Below, one piece after another: positions 3,363-15,296 of a DNA stretch of 64,000 nucleotides (its first letter is position 1; every line of letters starts with the position of its first letter). The DNA is from Anoxybacillus amylolyticus (GTDB lineage: Bacteria > Bacillota > Bacilli > Bacillales > Anoxybacillaceae). Made by a program: the position numbers and the translations under genes. Below the pieces are notes generated by a model. The model made no database searches. It saw only the letters and a list, made by a program, of their open reading frames with translations, and was not told the origin of the DNA. The DNA is taken from positions 942,001 through 1,006,000 of the forward strand of contig NZ_CP015438.1 of assembly GCF_001634285.1 (NCBI RefSeq). Direction: 5' to 3'.

Positions 3363-3398
3363 AAATGTAAACAACTGAATATTTTTTTTGTTTTGCAT

Positions 3399-3490
3399 CC
3401 ACTAGGGGGGCCTTTAGATAGGCTGAGATCAAAGTGTGCCTTTGAGACCCTTAGAACCTGATCTGGGTGATACCAGCGTAGGGAAGTGGA
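3399..3490 (+). ncRNA. TPP riboswitch (THI box)
   Basis: The conserved THI-box parts appear in order: ACTAGGGGGGCCTTT, GGCTGAGATC, GACCCTTAGAACCTGATCTGGGT and GATACCAGCGTAGGGAAGT (here joined across short segments). Thiamine pyrophosphate binding would favour the downstream terminator and so reduce expression of ykoE and genes behind it. The match to the family is essentially complete. Confidence 0.96.
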
Positions 3491-3517
3491 AAAATACATT
3501 CGCTCACTCACGTTTGT

Positions 3518-14601: not shown

Positions 14602-14808
14602 TTAGCGTGCGCTATATTGGCCGCCGAGTTGTTGTTGCGCCATTGACACTAGACGTTTTGTAATTTCTCCGCCAACAGAACCGTTTGCGCGAGAAGTAGT
14701 GTCTGCGCCAAGGCTTACGCCAAATTCTTGAGCAATTTCGTATTTCATTTGGTCAATCGCTTGTTGAGCACCAGCAACTAATACTTGATTGTTCGTTGTT
14801 CTTGCCAT
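14602..14808 (-). CDS. Alpha/beta-type small acid-soluble spore protein
   Basis: A 68-residue SASP that coats and protects DNA in the dormant spore and is degraded at germination by the GPR protease. The two family motifs are present: [15 protein letters not shown] with the GPR cleavage site after Glu, and [17 protein letters not shown]. Length and composition match SspA/SspC/SspD proteins; which paralogue is unclear. AAGGAGATGATT lies before ATG 14808. Its leader contains a tRNA-like cloverleaf and, upstream of that, a sigma-G-like promoter, consistent with forespore expression. Confidence 0.95.
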
Positions 14809-14846
14809 TTGGAATCATCTCCTTATTTTTCGTTTTAAAACTTTAA

Positions 14847-14917
14847 TGGCTGGGTTGGCTGGATTTGCACCAGCATGCACGCCTTTTCAGGCATGCTGCC
14901 AAACTTGGCTAAACCCA
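14847..14917 (-). ncRNA. tRNA-sized cloverleaf in the 5' leader of the SASP gene
   Basis: Read on the minus strand, this 71-nt stretch folds like a tRNA. An acceptor-like stem (TGGGTT with AACCCA) closes it. A D-like hairpin GCCA-AGTT-TGGC, a long anticodon-like arm GCATGCC/GGCGTGC with a 6-nt loop, and a T-arm GCTGG-TGCAAAT-CCAGC follow. A discriminator-like G and CCA end it. The anticodon loop is not a normal 7-nt loop and the T-loop has G instead of U at the second place, so a working tRNA is unlikely. It lies wholly between the putative transcription start (about 14930) and the ribosome-binding site of the SASP gene. It may be a decayed tRNA or a structured regulatory or stabilising leader. 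Confidence 0.5.
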
Positions 14918-14936
14918 ATGGCTATTTTTGTAGTAG

Positions 14937-14966
14937 TAGTTTGAAACATTTTTGTTTTCTTATACT
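14937..14966 (-). promoter_or_regulatory. Sigma-G-like promoter of the SASP gene
   Basis: On the minus strand AGTATA (14966-14961), a 17-bp spacer and CAAACTA (14943-14937) resemble the sigma-G consensus TGAATA-N17/18-CATACTA. The predicted start, about 14930, places the cloverleaf at the very 5' end of the transcript. Confidence 0.55.
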
Positions 14967-15053
14967 TTTTCGTTCATAGTAATTTTTGGTATTTTATACT
15001 CTCGGAAGTTTGGGAATAGTAAAAATAAGGCAGTTTTCAACAGGAGGATGACA

Positions 15054-15296
15054 ATGACAATTTGCCCGCTTTGTAACGGTCTTCGAGCATTTCATTTTTT
15101 TTGTCCCCGTTGTCAAACAGAGATGGAAGATCAAGGAAAGGTGACTGATTACTTTGACGATTACAGCCCGTATATGGAAATCGATGTAATGAAACAAGTA
15201 GACGGATATCCGATGACGCGACGAAATCATGAATGCGTGCATTTATTTTCTTGTCCATATTGTCAAAATGAAGAAGTTCGGTTTATAAAAGAGTAG
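15054..15296 (+). CDS. Small protein with two CxxC zinc-binding pairs, unknown function
   Basis: An 80-residue protein beginning at ATG 15054, 6 bp after AGGAGG (15042-15047); an ATG at 15048 in the same frame touches the ribosome-binding site. CPLC (4-7), CPRC (18-21) and CPYC (near 68-71) suggest structural zinc or a rubredoxin-like knuckle. The middle is acidic (DYFDDYSPYMEID). I do not recognise a named family. It is a single gene, transcribed away from the SASP gene with which it shares the intergenic region, and it ends in a palindromic hairpin. Confidence 0.75.
   Translation: MTICPLCNGLRAFHFFCPRCQTEMEDQGKVTDYFDDYSPYMEIDVMKQVDGYPMTRRNHECVHLFSCPYCQNEEVRFIKE

Follow-up and report, generated by a model that had tools for sequence, protein, structure and literature searches.

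A conserved tRNA-Gln-like element in the leaders of small acid-soluble spore protein genes and its possible processing by RNase P

Introduction

Why should a gene for a spore protein be preceded by something shaped like a tRNA? Spore DNA is protected chiefly by small acid-soluble spore proteins (SASPs), a long-studied group. In the window analysed here, a 64,000-nucleotide (nt) stretch of the Anoxybacillus amylolyticus genome (contig NZ_CP015438.1), a preliminary description had noted a 71-nt segment with acceptor-, D-, long anticodon- and T-like arms and a CCA end in the leader of a SASP gene. It had proposed that this segment is not a working tRNA and may be a structured mRNA leader, possibly processed by RNase P or RNase Z, and it had offered the decay of a tRNA gene as a simple alternative. 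We found that the observation was correct and that its reach is wider than first supposed: the element is descended from tRNA-Gln, covaries as an RNA structure across at least 23 families of the order, and has conserved the parts that bacterial RNase P reads.

Results

The element lies on the minus strand of the window, from 14917 to 14847 (71 nt; tRNA position 1 is 14917; sequence UGGGUUUAGCCAAGUUUGGCAGCAUGCCUGAAAAGGCGUGCAUGCUGGUGCAAAUCCAGCCAACCCAGCCA), and the four arms with their CCA end were confirmed by folding, by the sequence itself and by a covariance model. Its acceptor stem joins UGGGUU (14912..14917) to AACCCA (14851-14856) in six pairs and leaves position 66 unpaired, and it is followed by a D-like arm, GCC-AAGUUU-GGC (14898..14909), of 3 base pairs (bp) with a 6-nt loop that has no GG; both were assigned from folding and covariation. 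At the anticodon position stands a hairpin of 8 bp closed by a GAAA loop (14877..14896), taken from the fold and different between species. The T arm GCUGG-UGCAAAU-CCAGC (14858..14874), with the T-loop UGCAAAU, was assigned from the fold and from counts of conserved positions, and the discriminator G73 with the encoded CCA (14847..14850; CCA at 14849-14847) from position counts over model-found elements. When the leader (14809-14966) was folded, the cloverleaf appeared at -39.2 kcal/mol (z = -2.9), and 1 of 200 shuffles was equally stable.

The surroundings, all on the same minus strand, also agree with what had been described, since the element sits within 14808-14966 between a sigma-G-like promoter and the Shine-Dalgarno sequence of the SASP gene. 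The putative -35 box GTATA (14961..14965) is separated by a 17-nt spacer from the putative -10 box CAAACTA (14937..14943), which lies 19 nt ahead of the element; both were assigned from sequence and a promoter score. Downstream come the Shine-Dalgarno sequence AAGGAGAUGA (14815..14824), recognised by sequence and by its spacing in relatives, and the gene of a 68-amino-acid SASP of the alpha/beta type (14602..14808; PF00269, 77.9 bits).

That the element is not a working tRNA was borne out. ARAGORN reported no tRNA in the whole window, and the Rfam tRNA model RF00005 spanned 14850-14917 at full length with 17.9 bits, against a cut-off of 29. Among the 24 element loci L001-L024, ARAGORN called only L007, as tRNA-Leu(CAA), and automatic parsing recognised a canonical anticodon arm (5 bp, 7-nt loop) in 2 of 163 CCA-ended elements. 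The anticodon region of these 163 ranges from 6 to 79 nt and forms a hairpin in 151. What has been kept is the stack of acceptor and T arm with its 12 positions, the 3' CCA, and the T-loop consensus U54 U55 C56 R57 A58 N Y60 except at position 55; a standard 7-66 pair is seen in no more than 115 of 158 elements. When 19 isoacceptors were compared, tRNA-Gln was the best match of 179 of 182 elements, a set that includes pattern-found elements whose search pattern fixes some T-arm and acceptor letters. The element is thus descended from tRNA-Gln, with the acceptor, a reduced D arm, the T arm and the encoded CCA retained and the anticodon lost. With bacterial tRNA-Gln(UUG) it shares the acceptor UGGG...CCCA, the D-arm sequence UAGCCAAG/GGCA, the T arm and the NCCA end. 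It differs in having no 5-bp/7-nt anticodon arm, in carrying G55 in 99 of 116 model-found elements, in having mostly lost the D-loop GG, and in sitting in an mRNA leader instead of a tRNA gene, the window copy falling under the Rfam tRNA cut-off. As a separate observation, a tRNA-Gln-like gene at L172:1750-1824 (plus strand), near another tRNA-like match, has the T-loop UGCGAAU and so the same U55G change.

To follow the element in relatives, we used a DNA search and then covariance models. The DNA search covered 41 genomes (the source genome and 40 relatives) and gave matches in 25. Of these, 24 belong to the window's family (25 genomes searched), each match lying upstream of a SASP gene; in the remaining one, genome G035, the match is a true tRNA-Gln gene, and the weak matches L026-L028 are likewise tRNA-Gln genes. 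Covariance model R1, built from the 24 elements, recovered the one missed family genome (G010) at 76.1 bits. It matched 41 of 41 genomes of the window's family at 72.6-95.8 bits, with the next listed matches at no more than 42.8 bits, and in all 39 family loci that were fetched, out of 41, a SASP gene follows the element. The preliminary description had proposed just such a search of the leaders of relatives' SASP genes and would have been undone by a lack of conservation there; the element is conserved.

Beyond the family, a search of 397 genomes of the order yielded matches of 60-111 nt with up to 70 bits in other families. Its tally of 342 of 397 genomes was set aside because tRNA-Gln genes match the model too. 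In a panel of 41 genomes from 40 families, matches of non-tRNA length occurred in at least 18 families, and five further families (f21, f41, f43, f44 and f47) bring the number with the element to at least 23. In the genus of G176, all 44 genomes have a match of at least 48.9 bits, against 45.4 for the next ones, and the SASP context was read in 19 of the 44. Organisms with matches include Bacillus velezensis, siamensis and pumilus, Geobacillus, Parageobacillus, Anoxybacillus, Heyndrickxia coagulans, Mesobacillus, Neobacillus and Cytobacillus. Outside the order, a class search (398 genomes) returned only tRNA-sized matches (74-75 nt) of at most 49.4 bits among the matches listed, and a phylum search at 1e-8 matched 2 of 299 genomes, both inside the order; both searches score only 12-17 candidates per genome, so that absence outside the order is not proven.

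The association with SASP genes is close. A SASP hidden Markov model matches downstream of the element in 182 of 187 distinct fetched instances (all 124 of the model-found and 58 of the 63 pattern-found ones), a count that holds for matches selected, in model-found loci outside the family, from those listed as outscoring tRNA-Gln genes or having non-tRNA length. The 63 pattern-found instances were retrieved with a string in which G55, CCA and the T-loop spacing are fixed, and those features were therefore counted on model-found loci alone; other counts, such as those of the anticodon region, used the mixed or CCA-filtered set. The five instances without a SASP match are L134, a contig end whose last bases begin a SASP-like frame, two tRNA-like matches in L172, and the loci L135 and L136. 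Over 172 parsed leaders, the distance from CCA to the Shine-Dalgarno sequence is 10-26 nt (median 16) and the start codon lies 19-41 nt past CCA. A sigma-G-like promoter scoring at least 8.0 within 140 nt upstream was found for 173 of 181 instances and for 56 of 181 single mononucleotide shuffles, by a simple score made for this analysis. Transcription starting downstream of the element would have spoken against a leader role; the upstream start agrees with that role as a prediction from these promoters.

In genome G808 the element lies at C1:1050261-1050332 (minus strand), 26 nt ahead of the coding sequence of a SASP that we take to be SspB of B. subtilis 168, and a sigma-G-like promoter, GCATG-18-CATAATA, stands upstream. 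The element is apparently present, then, upstream of sspB in B. subtilis 168. Expression data for B. subtilis DB104 place sspE and sspB highest at one sporulation time point (PMC10745405). In one study sspA and sspB were not among the abundant dormant-spore mRNAs, and an earlier study had found them (PMC7407066), so that long storage of the message is not supported. Separately, the record titled Bacillus subtilis DE0224 (L194) encodes a different SASP and may be mislabelled.

Compensatory change argues that the element is maintained as RNA. For the 24 family elements, 99.4% of cells pair and two-sided change occurs in 5 of 20 pairs; for 93 elements the figures are 98.9% and 15 of 20, with 222 two-sided cells against 13-27 for the slid structure. 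With one sequence per family (23), 97.9% of cells pair, 16 of 20 pairs show two-sided change, and 86 two-sided cells stand against at most 15 for slid structures, with 0 of 500 shuffles as high by any measure. Alignment A1 was made freely with MAFFT; for A2 and A5 the model guided the alignment, which favours the structure. On the SASP-sense strand, G-U outnumber A-C among the non-Watson-Crick pairs by 45:6 in A2 and 45:13 in A3, two alignments of model-found elements that overlap, and by 64:15 in A4, where part of the acceptor is constrained by the DNA pattern. The compensatory changes that had been asked of a covariance model are therefore present, and together with the SASP genes downstream they support the proposal of a structured mRNA leader.

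The positions under selection were counted over 116 distinct model-found elements with no filter for CCA, the model setting the frame. CCA ends 110 of them, and in 109 the spacing between T-loop and A76 is exactly 16 nt. Within the T-loop, U54, R57 and A58 occur in all 116 and C56 in 113, with G (99) or U (17) at position 55; U1 is found in 96% and A72 in 98%. Information falls sharply at both borders, from 1.71 bits at U1 to 0.30 at -1 and from 1.78, 1.76 and 1.93 bits at positions 74-76 to 0.75 just past CCA; the borders match those of a mature tRNA. Counts for pairing between -1 and 73 show no clear tendency. The D-loop GG, as parsed automatically and in few lineages, is present in 14 of 17 elements with U55 and in 7 of 99 with G55; this co-change of D-loop and T-loop hints at an L-shaped fold and is not used as proof. 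An upstream mini open reading frame (NUG GGU UAA) was dropped, as its frame is not conserved by eye.

One SASP gene, sspB in the presumed B. subtilis 168, is led by a conserved tRNA mimic for which the searches made here gave no Rfam family and no paper. No Rfam 15 family, T-box and other leader or riboswitch families included, reaches its gathering score for the element in the window or in 20 relative loci. The idea of a known Rfam element was rejected after a permissive scan of 14780-15020, in which just the tRNA model (17.9 bits) and two more matches below threshold came up; the sole gathering-level match in the window is a TPP riboswitch at 3394-3501 (plus strand, 89.3 bits), away from the element. 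A literature search of open-licence papers found no description of it, and the words "tRNA-like" and "spore" do not occur in the main text of a survey of 104 candidates (PMC2864571).

Discussion

What might a tRNA mimic do at the head of a SASP message? We see an even chance that RNase P trims the forespore SASP mRNA so that its new 5' end is locked into the acceptor stem, and that the message is protected in this way. Transcription in the forespore from the sigma-G promoter would place the element at the front of the SASP mRNA, where RNase P would recognise it as a precursor tRNA and cut 5' of U1, the internal CCA aiding this enzyme and stopping RNase Z from removing the element from the message. 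The mRNA would then begin with a 5' monophosphate held in the stack of acceptor and T arm, about 16 nt before the Shine-Dalgarno sequence, and the stack would shield the message from 5' decay during heavy SASP production.

The features of an RNase P substrate are present, with the acceptor/T-arm stack, the T-loop, the 3' RCCA and a 5' leader predicted from the promoter positions. The RNase P RNA of E. coli cleaves hairpins made of acceptor and T arm, the enzyme appears to measure 12 bp, counted from the T-loop, and its RNA pairs with RCCA, and some mRNAs are described as its substrates (PMC11143913). Processing by RNase Z, the other enzyme that had been suggested, is unlikely because the internal CCA, reported as an antideterminant for RNase Z (PMC4919913), is conserved, and the CCA-less end after the discriminator that this enzyme would need is rare. 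The parts conserved are those that bacterial RNase P reads, which makes its cleavage of the leader plausible; the element may in this way stabilise the message. If RNase P does process the element, this enzyme has a conserved developmental mRNA target.

tRNA-like elements within longer transcripts are known. MALAT1 contains one, mascRNA, which is cut by RNase P, but it is eukaryotic, lies at the 3' end of a noncoding RNA and has no encoded CCA. The thrS operator of E. coli and other tRNA-mimicking leaders place tRNA mimicry in a bacterial mRNA leader before the Shine-Dalgarno sequence; the thrS operator mimics the anticodon arm, which the synthetase reads, whereas that arm is the non-conserved part of the present element. 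The non-tRNA substrates of RNase P (4.5S RNA, viral tRNA-like ends, riboswitches and mRNAs; PMC11143913) share a tRNA-like shape, with acceptor/T arm and RCCA within a longer RNA, while the present element, a putative substrate, keeps a full cloverleaf that is conserved and linked to a single gene family. The nearest precedent, tRNAOther of the B. cereus group, is also tRNA-derived, non-decoding, part of a longer RNA and found in Bacillus relatives, but it is described as lying next to a pathogenicity island behind predicted sigma-A and sigma-B promoters, and its deletion reportedly gave no significant change in sporulation or germination (PMC3399842). In context it differs from the element described here, a SASP-gene leader behind a sigma-G-like promoter, over 23 families.

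Several observations weigh against RNase P as the reader of the element. The acceptor sequence UGGGUU/AACCCA is conserved beyond what the enzyme is expected to need, and in the 116 elements two flanking positions (window 14920 and 14919) are conserved though -1 is not, with C at -3 in 81% and a purine at -2 in 94%; 131 real tRNA leaders in the fetched loci differ, favouring U at -3 and U at -1. Together, the acceptor and -3/-2 conservation hints at another reader. Six of the 116 elements have no CCA, and four of these six are second copies in tandem leaders. Such tandem elements stand in one SASP leader at L104, L105, L111 and L115 and at seven named loci, Mesobacillus and Neobacillus included (L131, L156, L163, L164, L171, L177 and L197). 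Where second copies were read, they carry U55 and show no clear CCA: it is absent at L104, L105, L111, L115 and L171, and those of L156, L177 and L197 stop two nt short with CCCCA, whose last CCA probably belongs to the acceptor strand.

Distribution adds further misfits. Among the matches listed, 22 of the 40 panel families have none of non-tRNA length. The window's genome contains four PF00269 genes, and only this one carries the element, the other three loci showing no model match above 8.5 bits; SASP synthesis therefore needs no element in general. (The next four model matches in this genome are 75 nt long with 44.8-49.4 bits, and the one checked, C3:859-933, is tRNA-Gln(UUG).) Finally, L135:3872-3937 (minus strand) and L136:5220-5285 (plus strand) retain the element with no SASP gene. 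Both have the divergent neighbour gene of the window locus upstream (50 and 49% identity) and a terminator-like hairpin within a few nt after CCA; by eye, a D arm is not evident, and one compensatory change, A-U to G-C, distinguishes the two. Taken together, the acceptor, the -3/-2 positions, L135 and L136, the second copies and the 22 families leave room for a protein reader, a role in trans, or loss in many lineages.

A somewhat unlikely alternative to RNase P cleavage is that the element works uncut, as a structure in cis bound by a protein or the ribosome, for example tuning SASP translation. Conservation of the acceptor and of -3/-2 in excess of RNase P's needs would suit it, as would the short distance to the Shine-Dalgarno sequence, but a pure structure has no need for CCA, and folding predictions give no sign that the Shine-Dalgarno sequence is sequestered. 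Its predicted unpaired probability (n = 153) is 0.453 with the element, 0.431 with the element removed and 0.396 with it shuffled, and sequestration was rejected for want of a clear effect. If the element does work otherwise than through RNase P, a tRNA-shaped forespore regulator would be new.

We consider it doubtful that the element is excised and acts in trans, as a small forespore RNA resembling tRNA-Gln that might, for instance, serve as a decoy for tRNA-Gln-handling enzymes. The retained tRNA-Gln acceptor sequence, with its nearly invariant U1 and A72, fits this idea, as do L135 and L136, and tRNAOther of B. cereus offers a precedent (PMC3399842). Nevertheless, the position ahead of a SASP gene in 182 of 187 instances, with the start codon 19-41 nt past CCA, points to a role in cis, a canonical anticodon arm for glutamyl-tRNA synthetase is found in only 2 of 163, and a free CCA end would require a 3' cut. 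Equally speculative is a broader view: forespore RNAs of this kind would form a class spanning the order, built on a captured tRNA-Gln that turned into a module for regulation or maturation; RNase P would serve as a developmental mRNA-processing enzyme in sporulation, and some lineages (L135, L136) would have freed the tRNA-like RNA to act in trans on the handling of tRNA-Gln/Glu in spores.

It is very improbable that selection acts on DNA, through an attachment site or a protein-binding palindrome; tRNA genes commonly serve as integration sites (PMC3399842), but G-U is preferred over A-C on one strand, the hairpin arms vary in length yet keep pairing, and the divergent neighbour is retained at most loci. 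A decayed tRNA gene lying by chance upstream of a SASP gene is scarcely credible: the match to tRNA-Gln and the weak tRNA-model score would suit it, but decay is excluded because the element has been maintained ahead of homologous SASP genes and covaries over 23 families (in the 93 elements and with one sequence per family alike), and the kept borders and CCA and the presence in every family genome amount to purifying selection.

The divergent neighbour itself, at 15054..15296 on the plus strand of the window, encodes a small cysteine-rich protein and is often retained beside the element. It is absent beside the elements of pumilus, safensis, velezensis and siamensis. Where the flank is long enough to tell, 88 of 106 loci have it (38 of them in the window's family), and this retention is consistent with vertical inheritance.
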